Shown here: positions 8,896 through 49,163 of the stretch, in pieces
Layout of the letters: each line of letters begins with the position of its first letter
How positions within the stretch are numbered: position 1 is the first letter of the stretch
Source: a bacterium
GTDB lineage: Bacteria > Sumerlaeota > Sumerlaeia > SLMS01 > JAHLLQ01
Assembly (NCBI GenBank): GCA_020444065.1
Contig: JAHLLQ010000006.1
Span: forward strand, 62,001 to 126,000
Reading direction: 5' to 3'
Length of the DNA: 64,000 nucleotides
Made by a program: the position numbers and the translations under genes
The notes under the pieces: model-generated
What the model saw: only the letters and a program-made list of their open reading frames with translations
The model's database searches: none
Told to the model about the DNA's origin: nothing

Positions 8896-10782
8896 TTACT
8901 TCTCGAGGTTCAGGACAGCTCCCCAACGGGCCGGGATGTTGACCGTCAAGGTCGTGCCCTCGGCAGCCAGCAGGCCTCCATTCAGCAGATCGGTGAAGAC
9001 CTGGCCCCGGCCGACTGGCAGGCTGACCGCCCGGGGCTGGTCGCTATTGTTAAGGACCACCAGGATGTTTTCGCGCGGGGCGATACGGCGATAGGCATAC
9101 ACCTCTGCCTCGTCGTCCGTCAGCACCGTCTCGAAATCCCCAGTGCGCAGGGCCGGATGGTTGTTCCTTATCCGGATCATCTTGCGATAGTGACTCGCCA
9201 TGTCGTGGTCGTAGGCGACCACGTCGCCGGGCGAGAACTTCGCACCAGTCGGAAGAGTCGTCTCTCGCTGGTAGGTCAGTTCCGGCCAGACCATCGGCTT
9301 TCGACAGTCTGGATCGTTTCCGCCCCACATGCCGGCCTCGTCGCCGTAGTAAACCATCGGCGCGCCAGGATAGGTCATCTGGAAGATTACGAACAGCTTC
9401 TGGATCTGCCGATCGGCGTCGCTGGGTTTGCGCGTGTTGTAGTTGCGGTTATTCTCGGCCTTGGAGTTGTTGAAGTAGCTGCCCCAGTCGCGATAGTGCC
9501 CATGCGCACGATTCACGATGTGCGAGCCGATTCGGTTTGTGTCGTGGCTATCAAACAGATTCTGCTGTACTGAGGCCACTCCCCCGCCGAAGGCGTTCCT
9601 CAGATCGCGCAGTTTCGCGTCGAACTCCGAGGGAGTAATGCTGTGTTCCTCCTCGATGAAGAACTCCGCAGAGGTGAACGCGAAGTTGTAGTTCATCACG
9701 GCGTCGAATTCATCGCCTTGCAGATACGGTTTCACCTTTGGAATCGGATCGACAATTTCCGCCGTCAGGTAGGCCTCGGGATTGATCGCCTTGACGTGCT
9801 TGCGCCAGTCCTTCCAGAAGGCGTGATCGACGCAGAAGGCCACGTCCAGACGCCATCCATCGATTCCGTCGGAGGGATCGCCATCGCCATTCGGGTCCAT
9901 CCAGCGACTTGTCGAATCGAAGATGTACTGCTTCGGCCCATCGACGATTCCGTTCTCGTCTTCGCGTAATTCAGGCAACGTATCCACGCCGAACCAGCCC
10001 TGGTACTTGAACTCCGTCCCTGCTTCTTCGTCGCGCCAACTGTGAACGACGAACCAGTCCTTGTAGGGTGAATCCTGCTGATTTTTGACGACGTCCTGAA
10101 ACGGCCAGCTATTGTAGCCCAGGTGATTGAAGACGCCGTCGAAGATGATGCGCATGCCACGCTTGTGAACTTCATTGATGAGTTCAAGTGCCAGATTATC
10201 CGCGCTGGTCATCACCCACGTCGATGGATCTGCGGGATTCTCCGTCGCGATCAGTGCCTCGTCGCCCGCCGGATCCGGGCCGAAGATCGGCTCGACGTGG
10301 TGATAAGATTCGCCGTCGTATTTGTGCAGCGACGGAGACATGAAGATCGGGTTCAGGTAAATCGCGGTCACGCCGAGATCCTGCAGATAATCGAGCTTGT
10401 CGATGATTCCCTGCAAGTCGCCGCCGCAACGTCGACGCAGGATGTTCCACCAGATGTTCTCGCCCGTGGCCCATTCCCACGGCTGCAGTTCATACCAGTC
10501 CGATGTCCAAGGTGAGATGTCCCACGGTTTATCCGGCGCGGTCGGCCATGCGCCTGTCAGGTCTTCGAGCTTCGGATCGTTTGACGGATCGCCGTTGTTG
10601 AATCGTTCAGGGAAGACCTGATACCAGACAACATTCTTCGCCCATGACGGGACGAACTCATCTGTCGTTTCGGGTGTGAGTGCCTTCTGAGCCGGTGTCG
10701 GTGTGCTCGTGCAGGCAGTTGACAGCAACAGCAGGGCTCCGGTCGCCGCGGCGATTCCGGCCCTTGTGATAGACGATTTCAT
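8896..10782 (-). CDS. GH13 alpha-amylase family lipoprotein (neopullulanase/cyclomaltodextrinase-like)
   Basis: A 628-residue glycoside hydrolase acting on alpha-1,4 (and perhaps alpha-1,6) glucans outside the cytoplasm. The signal peptide ends in a lipobox LSTAC with Cys24, so it should be lipid-anchored. The GH13 regions are clear: region I IIFDGVFNH (Asp215, His220), region II GWRLDVAF (nucleophile Asp313), region III LTAEIV (acid/base Glu342) and region IV FDSHDTNR (Asp414). The N-terminal VVWYQVFPERFNNGD and the absence of a separate N-domain point to the maltogenic amylase/neopullulanase side of GH13. The C-terminal residues 545-628 form the usual beta-sandwich. The SD AGGAGG precedes ATG. 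It is transcribed divergently from the next gene and ends at a strong hairpin. Exact substrate unknown. Confidence 0.95.
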   Translation of the reverse strand: MKSSITRAGIAAATGALLLLSTACTSTPTPAQKALTPETTDEFVPSWAKNVVWYQVFPERFNNGDPSNDPKLEDLTGAWPTAPDKPWDISPWTSDWYELQPWEWATGENIWWNILRRRCGGDLQGIIDKLDYLQDLGVTAIYLNPIFMSPSLHKYDGESYHHVEPIFGPDPAGDEALIATENPADPSTWVMTSADNLALELINEVHKRGMRIIFDGVFNHLGYNSWPFQDVVKNQQDSPYKDWFVVHSWRDEEAGTEFKYQGWFGVDTLPELREDENGIVDGPKQYIFDSTSRWMDPNGDGDPSDGIDGWRLDVAFCVDHAFWKDWRKHVKAINPEAYLTAEIVDPIPKVKPYLQGDEFDAVMNYNFAFTSAEFFIEEEHSITPSEFDAKLRDLRNAFGGGVASVQQNLFDSHDTNRIGSHIVNRAHGHYRDWGSYFNNSKAENNRNYNTRKPSDADRQIQKLFVIFQMTYPGAPMVYYGDEAGMWGGNDPDCRKPMVWPELTYQRETTLPTGAKFSPGDVVAYDHDMASHYRKMIRIRNNHPALRTGDFETVLTDDEAEVYAYRRIAPRENILVVLNNSDQPRAVSLPVGRGQVFTDLLNGGLLAAEGTTLTVNIPARWGAVLNLEK

Positions 10783-34048: not shown

Positions 34049-36865
34049 TCAAGCGGAAGCCTGCTGCGGCACCTCCGCCAAAATCATGTTCTTGCGCGTC
34101 AGCAAAACGAGCGCGTCGTCGGGAATCATGCCATCCAGGATGTGGCGGAGCGCAACCCCGGGATCGAGATACTTGCCGGGGATGAGCGACACGCGCGCCC
34201 GGAACTCCGGACGGTCCGGATTGCGCGATTCGGCGGGCTCGATTCGATGAATGCCGTCTTTCAACTCGCGATGCTTCTTTTTGCCCTTTCGCTCGATCGT
34301 CAGCGGAAAAGACTCGGCGTCGTTGAATACCGCAATCCGTCGCTCGGCTTCGTCGAAATCGAATCCCTCCACGCCGAGGATTTCGAGCGTGTAGTCGGCT
34401 TCACTTGCGACCGCAGAGATCGCCTTTCCGTGCAGTTCGACTTCTTCGGCAGTATGATACGACAAGCCGGGACAATTGAGGGCCTGAAGTCGCGCCAGGG
34501 CCTCGGATGGTTCAAGCCGCTCGCTCAACTGCACTTCGAAGTATTCAGCCTCGCCGGCCGTACCGACGCCCAACGGCGGCCCCCAACTCATGCGCGGGCG
34601 CGGGCTGTAGCCTTCGGAGAAACTGATCGGCAGCCCGGCGCGCAGCACGACCATCTCGACCAGTCGAATCAGGTCGAGGTGCGCCAACCAGCGCAAGTCG
34701 TCGGTCTTTGACAACGTGAAGCGAATGCGTTGCACAGCCTGATTTTCTTCCACGCCTTCCAGCGGCCTGACCTGCTGCAGGCGCGCCAACTCGCGATCCG
34801 TCTTCCCGTCCTGCTCGACCGACCCTTCGCCTTCCAGAATGTCAGTGCTTACATTCTCCAGCGCTGCATTCTCGCGCGCTATCTCTTCGGCGTGAATTGA
34901 TTCGTGCTTTGCGAGTATGTTCTTGATCGTCACATCATCGCAGACATCGCACTTCACGCATCGAACCAACGCGCAATCGGGCGTCTCGCCTTCGCGCTTG
35001 GCTTTCTCGTTTTCGCGGATCAGGAAGAGCTTGCCAAGCGACGGATCGAGATGATCCCACGCAAAGAACTCGTGCTGAGCACGTTCGCGATTGGCGTAGA
35101 AGGTCGGGTCCACCTGCTCGTCCAGGAAGGCCTGCATCCACGCGTCGAAACGGAACCCCTCGCGCCAGGAATCGAAACACGTTCCGTTCTGCCAGGCACG
35201 GTGGAGGACGCGGGCGACTTTGCGATCGCCACGGGCCAGAACGGCCTCGATAAAGGAGCCGCGGAAGTTGTGCGCACGCACCTGGGTGAAGCGCGATTCG
35301 GCGCGCTCGCGAACGTAGTACACGCGGCGCTGCAACTCGTCGACGTCGGGCTGGGCGTGCCATTGAAAGGGCGTGTGTGGCTTCGGAACAAACGGCGACA
35401 AGGTGATCGCGAGTGAGAAGCGCTTGCCATGAATCCGGCGGCCTTCCGACTCGGCGTACTTCGTCAACTCAATGATCCCATCAAGATCCGCATCGGTTTC
35501 GGTTGGCAGGCCGATCATGAAGTACAACTTCAGCGTCCGCCAGCCGCGCTTCAGCACCTGCGTGATCGTCTCGCGGAAGTGGGATTCATCCACTGCCTTG
35601 TTAATGACGCGTCGAAGACGCTCGGTTCCGGCTTCCGGGGCAAACGTGAAACCAGATTTCGGCCCCTGCGCAATGATCGAGGCCAATTCCACATCGAACG
35701 CGTTGATTCGCAGGCTCGGCAGGGAAAGACCCATCTTGTTGGCGCCAAACTGCTCCTGCAGCATCCGCATCGTAGTCGGCAAAGCCGTGAAATCCGCCGA
35801 ACTCAGCGACATGAGGCTGATCTCGCGGTAGCCCGTATTTCGAATCGCTTCCTGGGCAATCTTGAGGATCTGCTCGGGGGTGCGTTCGCGCAGCGGCCGG
35901 TTGATCATGCCGGCGGCGCAGAAGCGACACCCGCAATTGCAGCCGCGCTTGATCTCCACGGTCACGCGATCGTGCACGACGCGCACGTTTGGCACGACCG
36001 GACAGACGGCGCCGAGGTCCTCGCCGATATTGAACTGATTCTTCTTAACGAAAGACGGAATACCGCTCTCCAGAAGGCGGAATCCCTGCAGAGTTCCGTC
36101 CTCTCGCCAATCGAAGTGATAGAACGCAGGCACGTAACAGCCCTGGATTCCAGCGATACGGCGCAGAAGTCGGCGTTTCAGGTCATTCGAAATCGGAATG
36201 TCGTTGTGCTGATCCAGGCCTTTGCGGTCGTCTTCCCGACCGTTGCCGGGCCGGAACGGTCCGGCCGGATGGAGGGTGCTCAGATCCACACCGTCCGCAG
36301 CCAACTCGCGCTTGAACTCCTCGATGCAGAGCAGGAGGTCTTCTAGGACCCCTTCCCCGTCTCCCGTGACGAACACGTCGACAAATGGCGCGAGCGTCTC
36401 GGCGGCCAGGGCGCCCTCGCCTCCGGCGATGACAATCGGGAACACGGATTTCCTGAAAGCAGACCATGGAGAAAGCCCGGCCAAGTCCAGCGAATTCAGC
36501 ACGTTAGTATAGTTCATTTCATGCTGGAGCGAGTATCCCAGTACATCGAACAGCGCCAGCGGATCCTTGCTTTCGTGAGCGCGCAGCGGAAACCCGGCGC
36601 GCCGCATCTCCTGCTCCATGTCGATCCAGGGACAGTAGGCGCGCTCGGCCCACCATTGGGGCCGGCGATTCACGCGCTCGTACAGAATCTTGAAGCCATG
36701 GTACGACATACCGATGTCGTACTGGTCAGGAAAGACCAGTGCCGTCCGAACGGAAACGGTGCTCTTGTCCTTGACGACCTGGTTCAGTTCGCCGCCGACG
36801 TAGCGGCCGGGCTTCTCGACACGGGCCAGGATCTGTTCGTAGTGCTGAGTGCTGGAGTTGCTCAT
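34049..36865 (-). CDS. B12-type radical SAM protein fused to a DUF2344 domain
   Basis: The start at 36865 (MSNSSTQHYEQIL) has SD AGAGGT 3-8 nt upstream, giving 938 residues. The N-terminal part (about 1-600) is TIGR03960-like: a B12-binding-like segment near 60-190, then the [4Fe-4S] motif RGCNCGCRFC (CxxxCxxC, about 308-318) and a radical SAM barrel ending near FSLAITLSPFVPKPHTPFQW. Four Cys in VRCVKCDVCDD (about 640) may bind a metal. Residues 710-930 form a TIGR03936/DUF2344 domain (SKTDDLRWLAHLDLIRLVEM and FSEGYSPRPRMSWGPPLGVG). In many bacteria these are separate, adjacent genes. The reaction is unproved; the family is linked to RNA or ribosome neighbourhoods. Followed by the PfkB gene. 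Confidence 0.93.
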   Translation of the reverse strand: MSNSSTQHYEQILARVEKPGRYVGGELNQVVKDKSTVSVRTALVFPDQYDIGMSYHGFKILYERVNRRPQWWAERAYCPWIDMEQEMRRAGFPLRAHESKDPLALFDVLGYSLQHEMNYTNVLNSLDLAGLSPWSAFRKSVFPIVIAGGEGALAAETLAPFVDVFVTGDGEGVLEDLLLCIEEFKRELAADGVDLSTLHPAGPFRPGNGREDDRKGLDQHNDIPISNDLKRRLLRRIAGIQGCYVPAFYHFDWREDGTLQGFRLLESGIPSFVKKNQFNIGEDLGAVCPVVPNVRVVHDRVTVEIKRGCNCGCRFCAAGMINRPLRERTPEQILKIAQEAIRNTGYREISLMSLSSADFTALPTTMRMLQEQFGANKMGLSLPSLRINAFDVELASIIAQGPKSGFTFAPEAGTERLRRVINKAVDESHFRETITQVLKRGWRTLKLYFMIGLPTETDADLDGIIELTKYAESEGRRIHGKRFSLAITLSPFVPKPHTPFQWHAQPDVDELQRRVYYVRERAESRFTQVRAHNFRGSFIEAVLARGDRKVARVLHRAWQNGTCFDSWREGFRFDAWMQAFLDEQVDPTFYANRERAQHEFFAWDHLDPSLGKLFLIRENEKAKREGETPDCALVRCVKCDVCDDVTIKNILAKHESIHAEEIARENAALENVSTDILEGEGSVEQDGKTDRELARLQQVRPLEGVEENQAVQRIRFTLSKTDDLRWLAHLDLIRLVEMVVLRAGLPISFSEGYSPRPRMSWGPPLGVGTAGEAEYFEVQLSERLEPSEALARLQALNCPGLSYHTAEEVELHGKAISAVASEADYTLEILGVEGFDFDEAERRIAVFNDAESFPLTIERKGKKKHRELKDGIHRIEPAESRNPDRPEFRARVSLIPGKYLDPGVALRHILDGMIPDDALVLLTRKNMILAEVPQQASA

Positions 36866-37112
36866 GTTACCTCTTAGGACGGGGGCTCCGACAGGCATGG
36901 GGCATCGATGCCTGGTCGTTTCGGTGAATGCTGGCGGGCGGAAAGTCAAGGCCTCAGGCGGCTTTGCTCCGCGGGTGACTGAGGTAGCGACGGTTGTGCC
37001 GGAATCTGGAGTCGTCCGATCCGCTTTACAGTCGGTCCAAAATGGCAATTGCGGAACTGCGATTCGATCGTCTATGGAAACGGCCAACAGATTCTGGAGT
37101 GAGGTTGCCCCG

Positions 37113-37727
37113 ATGCCCCGATTTCCTCGACGAGAAGGCGAAATCATCCTGCTGGCCGACGATATGATTTCCGGCCTGAATTCCTATGGGAAACACTTTC
37201 CCAATTGCGACCCGAAAGGTCTTGAAGGCCTGCGAGCAGATTATCAGAAGCAGAAGGACGTCCAAATGGACGCCCTGAATGCTTACAAGGCGGCAACGGA
37301 GGCCAAGGATGAGGCCCTGCAGGAACTGATGCGCAAGATGAAGGACGAGTTGAAGCAGGCTGAGGACGACTCGAAGCAGGACCCGTCGAAGCTGGAGCGC
37401 ATCGGTTGGGGCGGCCTGTCCGAAGTAACCGTCACTCCCCCACCCGCTCCGCCGCGCGATCTGGAGGCTGTCTCCGAAGGCGCAGCGGGCGTTCGCCTGC
37501 AGTGGCGCCAGCCCGCCCGCGGCCAGGGAGGCCCGGTCCGCGTCTACGAAGTGGAACGGCGCGAGGGAGCCGACAAGAGCACCGAATGGACGCTCGAAGC
37601 CAATTCCTTCGATCTCGAATTGCGCATGAAGGAACTGCCGGTCGGAATTCCGCTTCGGTTCCGTGTCCGGGCGCGTAATCAGGCCGGCGCCTCCGATCCA
37701 AGCAACACCGTCGAAATCACCTTGTAA
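37113..37727 (+). CDS. coiled-coil protein with a C-terminal fibronectin type III domain
   Basis: The ATG at 37113 (MPRFPRREGE) follows GAGGTTG, giving 204 residues. Residues 35-85 form a charged coiled coil (KKD, MDALNAYKAATEAK and so on). PPPAPPRDLEA begins a typical Fn3 domain ending SDPSNTVEITL (about 110-204), with the hydrophobic core WRQP, VYEVERREG and FRVRARNQAG. There is no signal peptide. It is unusual for a cytoplasmic protein to carry Fn3, though such small proteins occur beside signalling genes. The kinase gene starts 30 bp later on the same strand, suggesting a two-gene operon. Confidence 0.83.
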   Translation: MPRFPRREGEIILLADDMISGLNSYGKHFPNCDPKGLEGLRADYQKQKDVQMDALNAYKAATEAKDEALQELMRKMKDELKQAEDDSKQDPSKLERIGWGGLSEVTVTPPPAPPRDLEAVSEGAAGVRLQWRQPARGQGGPVRVYEVERREGADKSTEWTLEANSFDLELRMKELPVGIPLRFRVRARNQAGASDPSNTVEITL

Positions 37728-37757: not shown

Positions 37758-40700
37758 GTGGATGAACAGATCACAGATCCCACGCCTTGGCCCTTCCACG
37801 AGCCGGAAACCGGCTCGCCGGAAGAGACGTTTGCATTGGAGCCGGACTCCGATGAGGAGCTTCCGGATCCGGACGCATCATTCCAGAACCTCTCCCAATG
37901 GACAGTCTCTGTCGCTTCTTCCGATCCCGATGATCTGGAAGCAGTTCGCGACGCGCCGGAACTGACTCGAACCAATTACATGCTGGTCCGCCGTGTCGGC
38001 CACGGCGGTTGCGGCGAAGTCTGGGAAGCGATTCAAAACAATCTCGGCCGCGAGATCGCGGTGAAGCTACCGTTCGGTGGTGCGGATGCCGAGGCAACGA
38101 CGCTTGGGACTTGCTCGCGCGATGTCGAACTCGGCTTCCGACGCGAGGCCCTCACGACCGGCAATCTCGAACATCCGAACATCGTACCCGTTCACGATCT
38201 GGGACGCGACGAGCAAGGACGTCCGCTGCTCGCAATGAAGTTGGTTCGCGGCACACCATGGAATAAGATGATCTGGTCAGACGAGGACCTGCCACTCGCA
38301 GACTTCCTCGCGCGTCATCTGCCGATCCTGATCGATGTTGCGCAAGCAGTCGCCTTCGCACACTCCAAGGGCATTGTTCATCGCGACCTGAAACCCAGCC
38401 AGGTGATGGTCGGCCGCTACGGTGAAGTCGTGCTGATGGATTGGGGCTTGGCCCTCGTGTTTGACGAAGAACTGGCGGGGCACGAGGTGCCGCTGCTCGT
38501 CAAGTCCGGGCTTGCTCCGACGAAGCAGACCGCCGGCGGACCTGCCGGAACGCCCGCGTACATGGCGCCGGAACAAACGCAGAAGCACTCTTTGGATGTC
38601 GGCCCTTGGACTGACGTGTACCTGCTCGGCGGAATCCTCTACTATCTGTTGGCCGGGCGCCCACCTCATGACGGCAGCCAGGCGAGCGAGGCATTTGAAG
38701 CCGCCTGCCAGGGCCGCATTCATCCGCTGAAAGGGCGGACAGAGGGTGAGCTGATTCCGGATGAATTGCGCGGCTTGTGTGCGCACGCAATGGCTGCAGA
38801 TCCGAAGGATCGCATCGAATCGGTCGAGGCGTTCCTGGGCGCCATTCAGGACTACGTCACCGGTGCCGGCCGACGGCGCGAAAGCCAGGAACTTACGAAT
38901 CGGGTCGAGGAAGAGCTCGCGGAAGAACAGCTCTCTCCGGAGACATTGGACTACCAGAGGCTCATTCAATTTCGACTTCAGGTCGGCCGTGCGATTCAAC
39001 TGTGGCCGGAGAATTTCCACGCGCGGCAATTGCATGAAAGTGTCGTGTTGCTGCACGCGCAAAAAGCCGTCGAGGGCGGCGATCTGTTGCTGGCGGAGTC
39101 GATGCTCGCTTCCGCTCCAGCCGGCGAGCAGCGCGAGCGCTTACTGAGCAAACTTGAAGCGCGCCGCGCACAGCTGCAGCGCGAGTCTCGTCAACGTCGT
39201 CTCTATCTGACTGCCAGTATGGTCCTCGTCGGGATGCTGCTCATTCTTGGCGGCTGGTTTTCAATCGAGCACGACCGCCAGAATCGTCGCGCACTCGAAA
39301 TCTCCATGCGCGAGCAGGAAAACGCGCGGCAGTTGGCGCGCGAAGCCGCGCAGCGTGCTTACGAAGCCGAACGCGCGCAGTATGTTTCCGACATTCGCTT
39401 TGCGCAGAGTCGCCTGACGGAAGGCGCACTGGACGAAGCCGAAGGCATGCTGCTCGGCATTGATGAATCGCGGCGCGGAATCGCGTGGGGCCTGCTGATG
39501 CGACTCTGTCACCCCGAGTTGATTGCGCTGCAGGGACACACGGGCGCGATCACGGGGTTGGACTTCAGCGAAGATGGGCATCTGCTGCTGTCTGTCGGGG
39601 AAGACTTGAAAGCCCGCATCTGGGATATGGATACGGGCAAGGAGAAGCAGGTCTTTCACGGTCATCGCAAACGCATTCGAACGGGGGCAATCAGCCGGGA
39701 CGGGAAGTTGGCAGCAACGTGCGGTTTCACGGGATCGATCCGGCTCTGGGAAACCGACACTGGACGCGAACTGTATCGCTGGCCGGTCGATGCACGCACG
39801 GTTGAGTTTGCGCCGGACAGCCTGAGCTTCGTTGCCGCCGGCCGCGACAAGTACGCCCGCGTGTATGATGTCGGGACGGGTAATTTCATCCTTCTCGAAC
39901 GCCACACCGAGGAAGTTGCCAACGCGCATTTCTCTCCGAATGGCAAACAGATCATCACTGCATCATACGACAACACGGCAATTGTCTGGGACCGCGAAAC
40001 TGGTCGGGTGGTGGTGGTTCTCGGCGAGCATGAGCTGGGCGTTTCCGATGCGCTCTTCAGCCCCAGCGGCGGACGCATCCTGACCGTATCGCACGACGGC
40101 CAGGCGGGCATTTGGGAAGCGAATACAGGTCGACTGCGCATGATGCTGAATGGGCACGAAGGCGGCCTGACGGCCTGCGCCTGGAGTCCCGATGGCCGCC
40201 GCATCGCGACGGGATCGCAGGATCGAACAGTTCGGATCTGGGATTCGACGACCGGCTTTGAACTGGTGCAATTGCAGGGACATGAGGAAGAACTCAGCCA
40301 CGTGACATTCAGCCCGGATGGTGCATTGATCGCGACGACGTCGCTGGATCGCACGGTGCGCGTCTGGCAGGCATCGACCGGCCGGCAATTGGCCGTTCTG
40401 TCGCGACAGGCCGTACCATTCTGTCCGCCAAGGTACAGCCCGCGCGGGACGATTCTTGCCTCTTCGGGCGGAGACGATGCGATTCAGATTTGGGCGCCTT
40501 CGGGGCAACCGGAAGAGTTCCGCCTCGAGGGGCATGAGGAGGAAGTGCTCGGCCTGGATTTCGATCCGAAGGGGCGCTTCATCGCGACTGGTTCACGCGA
40601 TCGAACGGCAAGACTGTGGGATGCGGGGAACGGACGGGAGTTCCTCGACATGGACGATCAGGATCGCGAAGTTTCGAGCGTGGCATTCTTTCCGGATGGC

Positions 40701-42191
40701 GAGCGACTCGCCGTCGCAACCTTCGATCAATCGGCATACGTGTACGATGTGAGAACGGGCGAACGACTGAGCACGCTCAAGGGGCACGAGCGCGAGCTCT
40801 CCACGATCGACGTTGCCGAAGGTGCGATTCGCATTCTGACGTGCTCGTTCGATGGAACCGCCCGTTTGTGGAAAGCCAACGAAGAGGAGCCCTACGCGAT
40901 CCTGGAAGGTCATGAAGGCCCCGTTCTGGTTGGTTGCTTCAATGATGATGGCGATCTCGTCGTGACGGGTTCCAGCGATCAGACGGCGCGCATCTGGAAT
41001 GCCAACACGGGCGAGCTGATTCATGTGCTGCGCGGGCACAATGGATCGATCACGGCCGCGGCCTTCGGGAAGTCCAACAAGCGCTTGGCGACGGGCTCTT
41101 CCGACAATCGCATTCGACTGTGGGATGTGCAGACCGGAAAGCCGCAGCAGTGGCTAGTGGGTCACGATGGGCGAATTCTCGATCTCGATTTCCATCCGGA
41201 CGGGGACTACATGGTCAGCACTTCCGACGATGGGACATTCCGGCTTTGGGACGTGACGACTGGGCGCGAGATGGTCCGTCTGTCCGATCCTTATGGGGCC
41301 GTCACGCACGCGAGGTTCAGTCCTTCAGGCCGTCAACTGGCAACGGCGAATCGTGTCGGCAGTGTGCGTGTTTGGGAGCCGGTACCATGGCGGTCGCAGG
41401 ATCTCGGCGGATCCCCCGATCTGCCGTGGGATGAACGGTTCTCATTGTGGCAGCATCAGCGTTTCCTGGAGAACATCGCGCGTCTGCCGGATCGACGCCT
41501 GCCCGCCTCCTACTGGCATGCCGTGTATCTGGCAGAGCAACCCGTCGATATCGGCAAGGCAGCGTTCTCGGGTGCGCTGGCGGCCTTGAAGGAAGTCTCG
41601 CCACGCACGCCGCAGGTTCAGAAGCTCTTCGTTGAAACGAGCGAGGCGCTGGCGACGAGTTCTCCGGAGACGAAAATCGCCGATGTTGCCCAGCCGCTGC
41701 TGGATGAAGTTCGAGGGGCTTTACGCGACATGCAGGTTGGTCTTCTGCCTCAGCGCGAAACCCAGCAGGCCGATGCTCCGGCCCCGAAATTCGATCGATT
41801 CGTGGAAGGCGCCCGCGGGCCGCTGCCGCTTGAAGAACAAAAGGCCATTCCAAGCGGGACGCCCCTGCGCGTGTTGTGCTTCATCCGTCGCGACGTCGAA
41901 GGGCACAAGGTCTTCATCGCCGGCAACCTTCCGGAACTCGGATCGTGGGAACCGTGTCGCGTGCCGTTCAGCCACGTCGAAGAAACGCCCTACGGCCACC
42001 TGTGGGAATTCCGCCTGCCTTACCAGCCGATGGAGTTCAAACTCTGCTACGGCCGCGAAGGCGATGGCTGGGTCGCCGGCGAGTGGTGGGGAATCGAGAA
42101 TCGCCAAATCCCAAGCCCGACGGCACAACTCTATCGCCTGCCCGACGGCGAGTTGTTGCTGCTGACGGAGTTTGGAAAGCATCCGGGGTAA
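37758..42191 (+). CDS. Ser/Thr protein kinase with membrane span, about 15 WD40 repeats and C-terminal CBM20 domain
   Basis: A 1477-residue protein; GTG start at 37758. The acidic N-terminus (1-70) is followed by a PknB-like kinase (about 74-365): Gly loop GHGGCGEVW, Lys103 in AVKLP, HRDLKPSQ (208-215, catalytic Asp210, with Gln215 instead of the usual metal-binding Asn), and DWG (228-230) instead of DFG. One membrane span lies at 481-501, followed by a coiled linker. About 15 WD40 repeats (each ending in forms such as ARIWDMDTG, IRLWETDTG) run from about 590 to 1215. Residues about 1370-1460 match CBM20, the starch/glycogen-binding module: EGHKVFIAGNLPELGSWEP and the WWGIENR end. If the span is used, the kinase is cytoplasmic and the WD40 plus CBM20 part is outside. 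See findings. Confidence 0.93.
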   Translation: MDEQITDPTPWPFHEPETGSPEETFALEPDSDEELPDPDASFQNLSQWTVSVASSDPDDLEAVRDAPELTRTNYMLVRRVGHGGCGEVWEAIQNNLGREIAVKLPFGGADAEATTLGTCSRDVELGFRREALTTGNLEHPNIVPVHDLGRDEQGRPLLAMKLVRGTPWNKMIWSDEDLPLADFLARHLPILIDVAQAVAFAHSKGIVHRDLKPSQVMVGRYGEVVLMDWGLALVFDEELAGHEVPLLVKSGLAPTKQTAGGPAGTPAYMAPEQTQKHSLDVGPWTDVYLLGGILYYLLAGRPPHDGSQASEAFEAACQGRIHPLKGRTEGELIPDELRGLCAHAMAADPKDRIESVEAFLGAIQDYVTGAGRRRESQELTNRVEEELAEEQLSPETLDYQRLIQFRLQVGRAIQLWPENFHARQLHESVVLLHAQKAVEGGDLLLAESMLASAPAGEQRERLLSKLEARRAQLQRESRQRRLYLTASMVLVGMLLILGGWFSIEHDRQNRRALEISMREQENARQLAREAAQRAYEAERAQYVSDIRFAQSRLTEGALDEAEGMLLGIDESRRGIAWGLLMRLCHPELIALQGHTGAITGLDFSEDGHLLLSVGEDLKARIWDMDTGKEKQVFHGHRKRIRTGAISRDGKLAATCGFTGSIRLWETDTGRELYRWPVDARTVEFAPDSLSFVAAGRDKYARVYDVGTGNFILLERHTEEVANAHFSPNGKQIITASYDNTAIVWDRETGRVVVVLGEHELGVSDALFSPSGGRILTVSHDGQAGIWEANTGRLRMMLNGHEGGLTACAWSPDGRRIATGSQDRTVRIWDSTTGFELVQLQGHEEELSHVTFSPDGALIATTSLDRTVRVWQASTGRQLAVLSRQAVPFCPPRYSPRGTILASSGGDDAIQIWAPSGQPEEFRLEGHEEEVLGLDFDPKGRFIATGSRDRTARLWDAGNGREFLDMDDQDREVSSVAFFPDGERLAVATFDQSAYVYDVRTGERLSTLKGHERELSTIDVAEGAIRILTCSFDGTARLWKANEEEPYAILEGHEGPVLVGCFNDDGDLVVTGSSDQTARIWNANTGELIHVLRGHNGSITAAAFGKSNKRLATGSSDNRIRLWDVQTGKPQQWLVGHDGRILDLDFHPDGDYMVSTSDDGTFRLWDVTTGREMVRLSDPYGAVTHARFSPSGRQLATANRVGSVRVWEPVPWRSQDLGGSPDLPWDERFSLWQHQRFLENIARLPDRRLPASYWHAVYLAEQPVDIGKAAFSGALAALKEVSPRTPQVQKLFVETSEALATSSPETKIADVAQPLLDEVRGALRDMQVGLLPQRETQQADAPAPKFDRFVEGARGPLPLEEQKAIPSGTPLRVLCFIRRDVEGHKVFIAGNLPELGSWEPCRVPFSHVEETPYGHLWEFRLPYQPMEFKLCYGREGDGWVAGEWWGIENRQIPSPTAQLYRLPDGELLLLTEFGKHPG

Positions 42192-42370: not shown

Positions 42371-43750
42371 ATGATCGGTTCGGCAGAGCAATGGTACGAC
42401 ACGTATGAAGAAGCTGTTGAGCTCTACATGGATCAGAATCTCTCGGGCGCCGAGGCGCTGCTTCGGGAGTGCACGGATTCGATCGCGGTCCTTATCGCCG
42501 ACGAACGTCCGATCCAACATGCGCGAGTTCTGAGTGTTCTCAGCGCCGTGTATCGCGGGATGAATCGCACGTCGGATTCGCTTGAGACAATCAAGCGCGC
42601 TGTTGCCCTTGTCGGCGAATCCGCCGGAGAGGCAAGCCAGGAGTTCGCCAACATTGTCCGCAACGCCGCGGACCTGCATTATCAGGCAGAGCGATTTGAC
42701 GAGGCCGAGGCACTCTATCGGCGCGCTCTGTACACGATGGAAGCACTCGTGGGTTCCACCATTCATCCCGAGTTGTGGGAGTGCCACTACGCGATGAGTC
42801 TCCTGGCGGAGGCTCGTGGGGTTGAAGCAGCAGCGGAGCAGCACTTCGAGCGCGCGTTCGACAGTGCGGCGCTGGACACAAGCGGTGAGGCCATTGCCGA
42901 GTTGTGCGCGCGCCACGTTCAGCGAATGGTCGATGCCGGCGCCCAGGCGAACAGCGTGTCGCTCCTTGAACGCGCGTTGAAGACGATGATTCAGATATAC
43001 TGCCAGCCGCCGCAGGAGTTCCCTGCGGAAGCGCCGATGGAAGAGGCAATGAGCCACTTCTTCTCGCCGACTTATCATTATCAGATCGAATACCAGCAGT
43101 ATGACATCGAGCCGCGACCGCTTCGATTCATTCGGCAATTGCTGGGGATGGCGCTGAAAGAAAACGAGGAGTTCGAGCGCGCCATCGAACAATTCAAACT
43201 GGTCGACGAGAATGACCAGAGAGCCCGGCGGCTTGGTAAGGGCGACCGCTATCCGGTTGAGATGCACTTGGATTCGCCGGAACGGTTCGAGTTGGATGAG
43301 GACGATCCGCCGCTTTTCCTCGATGAGGAAGAGGACGACGAAATCGATCCGGAGGATGTCAATTGGGATGACGTGATGAAGAGCGTGGGCTCGGTTCTCT
43401 CAAACATCGACGAATTGGAGGATGACGAAGAGTGGGAGGACGAAGGAGAGGATGAAGCCGAGTGGGCCGACGATGATGAGTTCGCTCCCCTTGAAAAGCC
43501 CGCGGAGGCGAACCTCGAAGATCTCGCTCCGACAACGACACGCGGCGACTTCCACATGCACTATGGCGTTTCGCTTCACATGCTCGGCCAGAAAACGGGC
43601 ATCGCCCAATACCTGCATGAAGCGGCCGGACATTACGCCTGCGCGGAGGCGAACTTCCGCCGCCTGCTCCCGTCCGACTCGCCTCTGCTGGCGGCCATCG
43701 AGGAAAACAAGAGGCACCTGGAGAACGACCTGAAGCAGTTGGAGGGCTAG
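42371..43750 (+). CDS. acidic TPR-repeat protein
   Basis: A 459-residue protein; ATG preceded by AGAGG. Residues 1-175 contain about four tetratricopeptide-like units (ADLHYQAERFDEAEALYRRAL is the clearest). A strongly acidic region (about 305-385; runs such as DEEEDDEIDPEDVNWDD and DDEEWEDEGEDEAEWADDDE) follows. Another helical unit (YHYACAEANFRRLL) ends the protein. There is no signal peptide, so probably cytoplasmic. It follows the kinase by 180 bp on the same strand and may be an adaptor for it, but that is inferred from position only. Confidence 0.82.
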   Translation: MIGSAEQWYDTYEEAVELYMDQNLSGAEALLRECTDSIAVLIADERPIQHARVLSVLSAVYRGMNRTSDSLETIKRAVALVGESAGEASQEFANIVRNAADLHYQAERFDEAEALYRRALYTMEALVGSTIHPELWECHYAMSLLAEARGVEAAAEQHFERAFDSAALDTSGEAIAELCARHVQRMVDAGAQANSVSLLERALKTMIQIYCQPPQEFPAEAPMEEAMSHFFSPTYHYQIEYQQYDIEPRPLRFIRQLLGMALKENEEFERAIEQFKLVDENDQRARRLGKGDRYPVEMHLDSPERFELDEDDPPLFLDEEEDDEIDPEDVNWDDVMKSVGSVLSNIDELEDDEEWEDEGEDEAEWADDDEFAPLEKPAEANLEDLAPTTTRGDFHMHYGVSLHMLGQKTGIAQYLHEAAGHYACAEANFRRLLPSDSPLLAAIEENKRHLENDLKQLEG

Positions 43751-47178: not shown

Positions 47179-47381
47179 GATTCATAGACTCCTGTTAGCA
47201 CTTGATATGGGTGCGGTTCTGGAATACTCCTTGGAGAGAAAAGCGGAACGGCTTGCTCATTCCGTATTTTCCATGGGGGGTTCATGCAAACTCCTTGCCG
47301 CCCGGTGCCAGCCTCGGGCAGCATACTGTCTTGGGTCGTTGCTCGGCCACCCCCAATTACATGCAAAGAGTGGGATACTCC

Positions 47382-49163
47382 ATGATTGAATCGACTGTCT
47401 TTACACGACATCTCCGAATGCTGCTGCTGGGGCTGCTTCTGGTGCCCGTGGCAGTGCGCGCCCAGACCTTCGTGATCGAGTCCGACTCCCGCGGCCAGAA
47501 CTCGGACCGCTTCCAGATTACCAGCGGCAGTTGGGTGCCCAGCGACGTCAAGAGCCGGGCGAGCTACCTCGGCGCGACAGCCGTGGCTTTGAAGATGGAA
47601 AGTCAGACTGGCGCGGTTCGTTTCAACCCACTTATCAAGTACGGTGGCGACTACCAGATCGAAATGACCTGGCCGACTCGATCCAACGTAACCGGCGCTA
47701 TTGCGAAGGTAACGGTCAATGGAACAGAGCTGGCCTCCGTGCCACTGACAATGGATTCGACCAATGCCGATAATTGGTTCTCCCTGGGCCTATTCCCCCT
47801 GACTGAGGGCGAAGGTACAATGATCGATCTCGTTGTGCCCAATGAGGCAAAGGCCGCGCACGACGATAGTCCGATGGCAGTCTACGCCGACGGCGTTCGC
47901 TTTCGCGCCGTCCAAGCCGGATCGCTCCCCACCGACGCCGTGACCGAGGAGAATCCCTTCGAACGCGCCACGTCCTCGGAACCCGCTGGTGGCGCTTCGC
48001 CATTCGATTCACCTCCGCCAAGCGATACCATGGGCTCGGCGGCTGTGAGCTCGGCGGATAGCCCCTTTGAAAATCCGCCGGCAGCCGACAATTCAGCTTC
48101 GACATTCTCAAGCCCCCCAACGAGTTCCAGTGACAGCCCGTTTGCCAATCCTCCGGCTGAAGACCCGTTCACCGCTTCCAGCAGCGCCCCGAGCGCCGAG
48201 GATCCCTTCGGCGGTTCCGGCGGACAGAGTCTCCCGTTTGGCGACGGCACGGGCGGAGCCCAGAGCGAGGGAATCTTCGGCTCGAACGTGGAGTTCCAGT
48301 CTTCGGGCGGTTCCGAAATCCTTGAATTTCAGGGTGGAGAGGGTGAACAGGAAGGCTTTGCTGCTCCTCCGACTTCCGGGACGGCCGCTGCATCCTCTTC
48401 GTCGGGTTCGTTCGCCGATCCGTTCGCCACAGAGGCAGGCGCCTCCGATCCGTTCGCAGGCTCGTCGACCTCTACGGCTTCCAGCAACGATCCGTTCACG
48501 GGCGGCACGCGAGCCTCTTGGGATCCATTCGGCAGCGGTGGTGATTCCGGGGCTTCCTCGTCCTCAGGATCGACCTCGATGAATGAATACGGCAGCGCCT
48601 CGCTCCCCGAATCTTCGACCGGCAGCCCGTTCGGCACGCCTCCGTCCGATTTCGGCGGCTCCGGCGGATTTGCAGCCTCGACACCGCCCTCCAACACCGC
48701 AGCTTCGAACATCGCTCGCAGCCAGGACCTGAGGAACTTCGCCTCGACGATGGAGAGCGAAGATGCGGAACCTGTCTTTGTCGATTACTCGGCCAGCCAG
48801 CCGAAGGCCGAGCCGACACCGGCGCCTGCCGGCGACATCGATTGGCTGTACGACCTGGACAAGGCCATGGAAGTGGCTCGCGAGCAGGGCAAACCCATCC
48901 TGGTCGTCTTCCTGGGCTCCAACAAGCAGAGCGAGACGTTCGAGAACGAAGTTCTTGCGGATGCGGACGCGGTGGACCTGATCAACAAGTTCATCCCCGT
49001 TCAGTTGGACTTCCAACTGGATAATGCCCTGGCCCGTAAATACAATGTTCCCAGCTCTCCGTACGCGGTTGTTCTCAATAAGTTTGGTTACACCAAGAGC
49101 CACGTTTCGATGATGACGGATACGCGGCGTTTCAATCGAGCCCTGACCCGACTGACGGACTGA
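47382..49163 (+). CDS. secreted golvesin-like / xPF-repeat / thioredoxin-fold protein
   Basis: The ATG at 47382 (MIESTVFTRHL) gives 593 residues; a start 21 bp earlier is possible. The signal peptide ends at VRAQT. Residues about 29-170 resemble the golvesin C-terminal module (YGGDYQIEMTWP, ending YADGVRFRAV). Residues about 185-440 are low-complexity Ser/Ala/Gly/Pro with 12 short xPF motifs (NPF, SPF, DPF, LPF). Residues about 485-593 are a thioredoxin-like fold (KPILVVFLGSNKQSETF, then PSSPYAVVLNKFGY with cis-Pro-like end), but the CxxC position has SNKQS, so it cannot be a disulfide oxidoreductase. Partner or chaperone role more likely. Function unknown. Confidence 0.83.
   Translation: MIESTVFTRHLRMLLLGLLLVPVAVRAQTFVIESDSRGQNSDRFQITSGSWVPSDVKSRASYLGATAVALKMESQTGAVRFNPLIKYGGDYQIEMTWPTRSNVTGAIAKVTVNGTELASVPLTMDSTNADNWFSLGLFPLTEGEGTMIDLVVPNEAKAAHDDSPMAVYADGVRFRAVQAGSLPTDAVTEENPFERATSSEPAGGASPFDSPPPSDTMGSAAVSSADSPFENPPAADNSASTFSSPPTSSSDSPFANPPAEDPFTASSSAPSAEDPFGGSGGQSLPFGDGTGGAQSEGIFGSNVEFQSSGGSEILEFQGGEGEQEGFAAPPTSGTAAASSSSGSFADPFATEAGASDPFAGSSTSTASSNDPFTGGTRASWDPFGSGGDSGASSSSGSTSMNEYGSASLPESSTGSPFGTPPSDFGGSGGFAASTPPSNTAASNIARSQDLRNFASTMESEDAEPVFVDYSASQPKAEPTPAPAGDIDWLYDLDKAMEVAREQGKPILVVFLGSNKQSETFENEVLADADAVDLINKFIPVQLDFQLDNALARKYNVPSSPYAVVLNKFGYTKSHVSMMTDTRRFNRALTRLTD

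Follow-up and report, generated by a model that had tools for sequence, protein, structure and literature searches.

Few bacterial Ser/Thr kinases whose outer part is a propeller or a TPR array have a known ligand. One such plan, a kinase followed by a membrane span and an extracellular beta-propeller sensor, is that of Mycobacterium tuberculosis PknD, and it appears to be shared by the protein studied here, which is encoded in a stretch of 64,000 nucleotides (the window) from a bacterium of the Sumerlaeota (assembly GCA_020444065.1, contig JAHLLQ010000006.1, positions 62,001 to 126,000). PknD differs in that its propeller is of the six-bladed NHL type and that it has no carbohydrate-binding module (CBM), whereas the window protein carries WD40 repeats and ends in a CBM20 starch-binding module.

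Like the window protein, PkwA of Thermomonospora curvata and kinases of Planctomycetota and Ca. Uabimicrobium have an N-terminal Hanks-type kinase and C-terminal WD40 repeats, and the latter two groups also have one span and a WD40 part predicted to be periplasmic (PMC11032199, PMC6113231). The CBM20 behind the propellers is an addition of the present proteins: no starch-binding module was found described for those WD40 kinases in the passages searched, where the kinase partners named are WD40, TPR, sulfatase-modifying and DUF1080 domains (PMC11032199). Of two papers on bacterial kinase architectures, one has no match for carbohydrate, CBM or starch (PMC2877116) and the other mentions no sugar-binding module (PMC1262709). 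Text searches of open-licence literature found no CBM20 together with a kinase domain, which agrees with an earlier note on this DNA that knew of no WD40 kinase with such an end. The parts and the propeller-receptor-kinase plan are thus already known, and the CBM20 end is what is new.

A comparable sensory arrangement exists in the RsgI anti-sigma factors of Clostridium thermocellum, which likewise combine a cytoplasmic signalling domain, one span and an external C-terminal CBM that senses polysaccharide, but which act on a sigma factor, use CBM3 and other plant-polysaccharide modules, and have neither kinase nor propeller (PMC4711584). As the N-terminal domain of the window protein is a protein kinase and not an anti-sigma domain, RsgI is an analogue in function, not a homologue.

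A WD40 kinase with a CBM20 end

The earlier note, made from the sequence alone, had read a Ser/Thr kinase, a membrane span, about 15 WD40 repeats and a CBM20 in the protein. All four were recovered by Pfam, hydropathy and motif count (Table 1), including the CBM20 match and the span, on which that reading depended. The WD40 array scored 379.8 bits in Pfam, and its 15 end motifs, spaced by 39-42 residues between residues 619 and 1203, probably correspond to two propellers. In an alignment, the linker behind the array is much longer than its counterpart in a paralogue (below); when all 941 residues of the outer part were modelled with AlphaFold from the single sequence, the predicted local confidence (pLDDT) was 43, and this model was used solely as a hint that the linker is helical. 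The kinase domain has the Hanks-type motifs at residues 79-272: the Gly loop GHGGCGEV, Lys103, the alpha-C Glu130, HRDLKPSQ (Asp210), DWG in place of DFG (Asp228) and APE.

Table 1. Features of the kinase gene and of related loci; positions are those of the window except where a locus precedes them
Feature	Position	Strand	Evidence
Kinase - span - 15 WD40 - CBM20 protein, 1477 amino acids, GTG start	37758..42191	+	Open reading frame, Pfam, end-to-end alignment with second copy
Ser/Thr protein kinase domain, residues 74-356	37977..38825	+	PF00069 97.5 bits, motifs
Single predicted transmembrane span, about residues 484-503, LTASMVLVGMLLILGGWFSI	39207..39266	+	Hydropathy, charge count, sister-kinase position
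WD40 array, residues 588-1210	39519..41387	+	PF00400 and propeller families, motif spacing
Linker, residues 1211-1365, predicted mostly helical	41388..41852	+	Secondary structure of low-confidence model
CBM20 starch-binding module, residues 1366-1462	41853..42143	+	PF00686, PDB profile, Foldseek, residue table
Second CBM20 kinase, 1380 amino acids	L033:6451-10593	-	Aligned end to end with window protein, 36% identity
GH13 alpha-amylase-family enzyme, lipoprotein-type signal LSTAC	8896..10782	-	PF00128 209.7 bits, N-terminus
CBM20-like domain, N-side of esterase	L035:1271-3019		Profile match ends at position 71 of 97
CBM20-like domain, N-side of GDSL lipase	L036:2495-3523		Match ends near profile position 71-78
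CBM20-like domain, N-side of polysaccharide deacetylase	L037:3394-4776		Match ends near profile position 71-78

The CBM20 call held in a PF00686 search, which placed a CBM_20 match at about residues 1381-1455 (26.0 bits, E 7.8e-6; Pfam's curated threshold is 23.3 bits); a profile search of the whole genome gave 26.9 bits (E 1.5e-5). Searching the genome with the tail only found a second locus (G000:C4), whose product also has the kinase, the span, the WD40 array and a CBM20 (28.8 bits, 34% identical to that of the window protein); the note had rightly described one such protein and had missed this paralogue of the same plan. When compared with PDB, a profile of the two tails retrieved cyclodextrin glucanotransferase (CGTase; E 3e-5) and glucoamylase (E 0.005). 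A single-sequence AlphaFold model of the tail (pLDDT 72.9) shows the beta-sandwich fold of starch modules: its best Foldseek matches were laforin, glucoamylase, a CBM41, beta-amylase and the CBM20s of GDE5 and STBD1, with moderate template-modelling scores (0.34-0.53), and its best 20 PDB matches were almost exclusively alpha-glucan modules. The best structural match was entry 4rkk, which we take to be human laforin. By model comparison the same fold is found in the CBM20s of laforin, STBD1, glucoamylase and CGTase, which are phosphatase, adaptor or hydrolase/transferase proteins and none of them a Ser/Thr receptor kinase.

In the CBM20 family, site 1 is conserved and formed by Trp543, Lys578 and Trp590 (Aspergillus niger glucoamylase numbers), and site 2 is variable except for Trp563 (PMC9920598), a pattern that both kinases follow. 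Aligned with glucoamylase and CGTase, which have the same site-1 residues, the window protein has site 1 intact (Trp1397, Lys1428, Trp1443) and also keeps the equivalents of Asn595 (Asn1448) and of Trp563 in site 2 (Trp1416); the paralogue keeps all five as well. The glucoamylase row that served as reference was entered by hand, and the CGTase row, taken from the PDB search output, agrees with it. Each of the two stretches that the note had singled out, EGHKVFIAGNLPELGSWEP and EWWGIENR, contributes one half of site 1. This pattern is not automatic, since in the same alignment four CBM20-like domains lack both Trp590 and Trp563: two sit on exported proteins of this genome, the GDSL lipase and the polysaccharide deacetylase, and two come from other genomes of the phylum (the esterase domain was left out of this alignment). 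The kinase modules are therefore closer to true starch binders than these domains, and the domains on the esterase, lipase and deacetylase perhaps represent a separate, non-starch branch of the fold. Altogether, sequence and model suggest that the tail is a genuine CBM20 with its main sugar-gripping residues intact, which would bind glucan.

Topology, amylase genes and a model of glucan sensing

We next consider where the module would lie. Hydropathy finds one hydrophobic span between kinase and propeller (Kyte-Doolittle maximum 1.93), as in WD40 receptor kinases, with six basic residues among the 15 on the kinase side and four among the 15 on the far side; it sits between the arginine-rich stretch RRAQLQRESRQRRLY and a mixed-charge stretch that is probably coiled. 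Sister kinases of the same and of related genomes have a span equally far from their catalytic loop, and the WD40 arrays of Planctomycetota kinases of this plan were predicted to be periplasmic with DeepTMHMM (PMC11032199). As it needs ATP, the kinase should be cytoplasmic, and with a single span the propellers and the CBM20 would therefore lie outside, by analogy in the periplasm. Of the two orientations that the note had left conditional, we thus favour the outer one over the inner one, given the need for ATP, the single span with its basic kinase side, the published predictions and the exported amylase-family enzymes described below.

The genome is rich in such enzymes. It holds 22 GH13 matches at E<=1e-10, which fall in 19 open reading frames (ORFs; count of listed places), vs 0-8 matches in each of 39 other genomes of the phylum; completeness is 97% here and 58-96% there, and these differences are too small to explain the excess. 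In a crude signal-sequence test, 12 of 18 GH13 ORFs begin with a signal or a lipoprotein-type signal, and the nineteenth, in the window, is also of the lipoprotein type, so that about 13 of 19 are apparently exported. Of the phylum's genomes, this one alone has CBM20 kinases, and it also has by far the most amylase-family genes.

Because of the single-span topology and of the RsgI precedent for CBM sensors on the outside, we propose that the protein is a receptor kinase of the single-pass type, which would detect alpha-glucan with its propeller and CBM20 in the periplasm and pass the signal inward, a reading to which we give a rough probability of 0.55. In this model, the N-terminal kinase would lie in the cytoplasm and one span would cross the inner membrane, with the WD40 propellers and the CBM20 in the periplasm. 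Site 1 of the CBM20 would bind alpha-1,4-glucan (starch, glycogen or long maltodextrin chains), which would alter the clustering or the conformation of the outer part and thereby kinase activity, and the kinase would then phosphorylate proteins of the cytoplasm through which the large set of exported alpha-glucan enzymes is adjusted. With two such kinases, each ending in a module whose main sugar site is intact, the cell may well use a eukaryote-type kinase to sense starch-like polymers directly. A bolder version, which we hold only tentatively, is that a lineage of starch degraders recruited CBM20 onto at least two different propeller kinases and that the extracellular polymer, not an imported sugar, switches the kinase and controls the exported amylases.

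Several observations weigh against this model. The topology was deduced from hydropathy, charge and analogy, and the CBM20 scores of the two kinases exceed the cut-off by only 3-6 bits. Of the site-2 residues (Tyr527, Tyr556 and Trp563), Trp563 alone is kept; as site 2 is variable in the family, the missing tyrosines do not exclude membership, but affinity may be low. The correlation between GH13 genes and CBM20 kinases comes from one genome and has a weight of 1 in 40, and no alpha-glucan gene adjoins either kinase among the neighbours of both loci. Finally, in both CBM20 kinases the HRDxKPxN loop has Gln in place of Asn, a residue that normally binds metal, and the window kinase has DWG in place of DFG. 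HRD(L/I)KPxQ, usually together with DWG, was seen in at least 13 kinases of the genome (window 38379-38408 and 12 other places) and also in relatives; by sequence it is a clade-wide change at the metal-binding residue. Being family-wide, both substitutions are probably tolerated, and the kinase is likely to be active, as the remaining catalytic residues are all present.

If the model holds, sensing of polysaccharides by CBMs extends from anti-sigma factors to protein kinases, and bacteria have a counterpart of the coupling of kinase signalling and glucan binding in AMPK; to our knowledge, this would be the first Hanks-type bacterial kinase to sense a polysaccharide through a CBM. A CBM20 with an intact sugar site also points to a specific class of ligand, with which it would be cheap to test directly whether a ligand activates a WD40 kinase.

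Alternative explanations

The best-surviving alternative, possible although we doubt it, is that the CBM20 binds alpha-glucan as an anchor, holding the kinase or the partners of its propeller at exported glucan or near surface amylases, while the WD40 part senses a protein or peptide. CBMs on enzymes do work by targeting, WD40 repeats typically bind proteins and make up most of the outer mass, and two sister kinases (L057 and L058) have the same plan without CBM20, so that a propeller can signal without it. A receptor kinase has, however, little evident need for anchoring to a polymer, and in the bacterial CBM-sensor precedent, RsgI, the CBM is the sensing end (PMC4711584).

It is unlikely that the module kept the CBM20 fold without a sugar role in vivo, as a structural cap or a protein-interaction module derived from a CBM20 ancestor. 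The fold is indeed reused without a full starch site, as esterases and deacetylases of the phylum commonly carry CBM20-like domains that lack Trp590, but both kinase copies retain all three site-1 residues in spite of the low identity of their CBM20 domains.

Still less probable is a cytoplasmic propeller and CBM20, with the span a hairpin or not inserted, that read intracellular glycogen as AMPK (with its CBM48 subunit) or laforin (CBM20) do. Eukaryotic glycogen-sensing kinases and phosphatases with CBM20 or CBM48 are cytoplasmic, laforin is the best structural match of the tail, and the nine cysteines of the outer part give no argument for export; against this stand the clear single span with its basic kinase-side flank, found at the same position in sister kinases, the periplasmic WD40 arrays of the published predictions (PMC11032199) and the mostly exported GH13 set.

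That the architecture is an artefact of gene fusion, mis-assembly or a chance CBM20 call, as scores near the cut-off and an assembly of 14 contigs might allow, is very hard to credit: the second copy, on a different contig (C4 and C6), makes it neither a single accident nor a mis-assembly of one locus, third-position guanine plus cytosine (GC) content is similar along the gene (0.68, 0.69, 0.75), and PDB searches with the two-tail profile retrieve CGTase and glucoamylase.

Distribution, origin and neighbouring genes

The CBM20 profile was run on 386 surrounding genomes (the phylum included) and on 392 genomes of another kinase-rich phylum; of five genomes from a third phylum that were also searched, two belonged to the first set as well. 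A CBM20 kinase is absent from all 39 other genomes of the phylum, and no further one was found among these roughly 780 genomes, the long ORFs that were fetched not being kinases. Within the phylum, 12 of 40 genomes, this one included, have CBM20 matches, which, apart from the two kinases, lie in other ORFs. Among the long CBM20 ORFs retrieved from elsewhere, three of about 1200 residues were read from their sequence as exported GH57-like enzymes and the others lack the HRDxKP motif. A Brachyspira match to the two tails in a scan of a genome collection covers 20 residues and was judged to be chance. In another phylum, CBM20 matches also occur in long ORFs of GC-rich genomes (L077, L079), and at L079 a kinase gene with a WD40-like end adjoins a CBM20 gene on the opposite strand, the two being unfused.

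The other kinases scanned in the genome have TPR or WD40 outer parts, or none that was recognised. In sister kinases without CBM20 little follows the WD40 array, and the end has a related motif, PW....Y..., so that the CBM20 looks appended. Descent of both CBM20 kinases by a single duplication was weighed with a tree of kinase domains that has low support throughout. The paralogue groups there with a TPR kinase (98/91) rather than with the window kinase, but a test against a clade common to both, a question posed after the tree had been seen, was borderline (p-AU 0.043). A movement of the CBM20 module between kinases is therefore suggested, and we do not claim it.

The neighbours of the window kinase are a fibronectin type III (fn3) protein, a TPR protein, a GGACT-family protein and an ABC ATPase; as those of the second copy differ, a conserved neighbourhood was rejected as evidence. 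The fn3 ORF (36849-37727, + strand) ends 30 bases upstream of the kinase gene and overlaps the beginning of a radical SAM gene that runs the opposite way; its true start is probably further in. Directly downstream lies the TPR protein (42371-43750, + strand), which is very acidic at about residues 310-390. The second CBM20 kinase gene stands tail to tail with a TPR kinase gene (L033:3272-6454, + strand), with an overlap of about 4 bases. Elsewhere in the window, a 653-residue protein (47202-49163, + strand) combines a Golvesin C-terminal domain with a thioredoxin-like domain.

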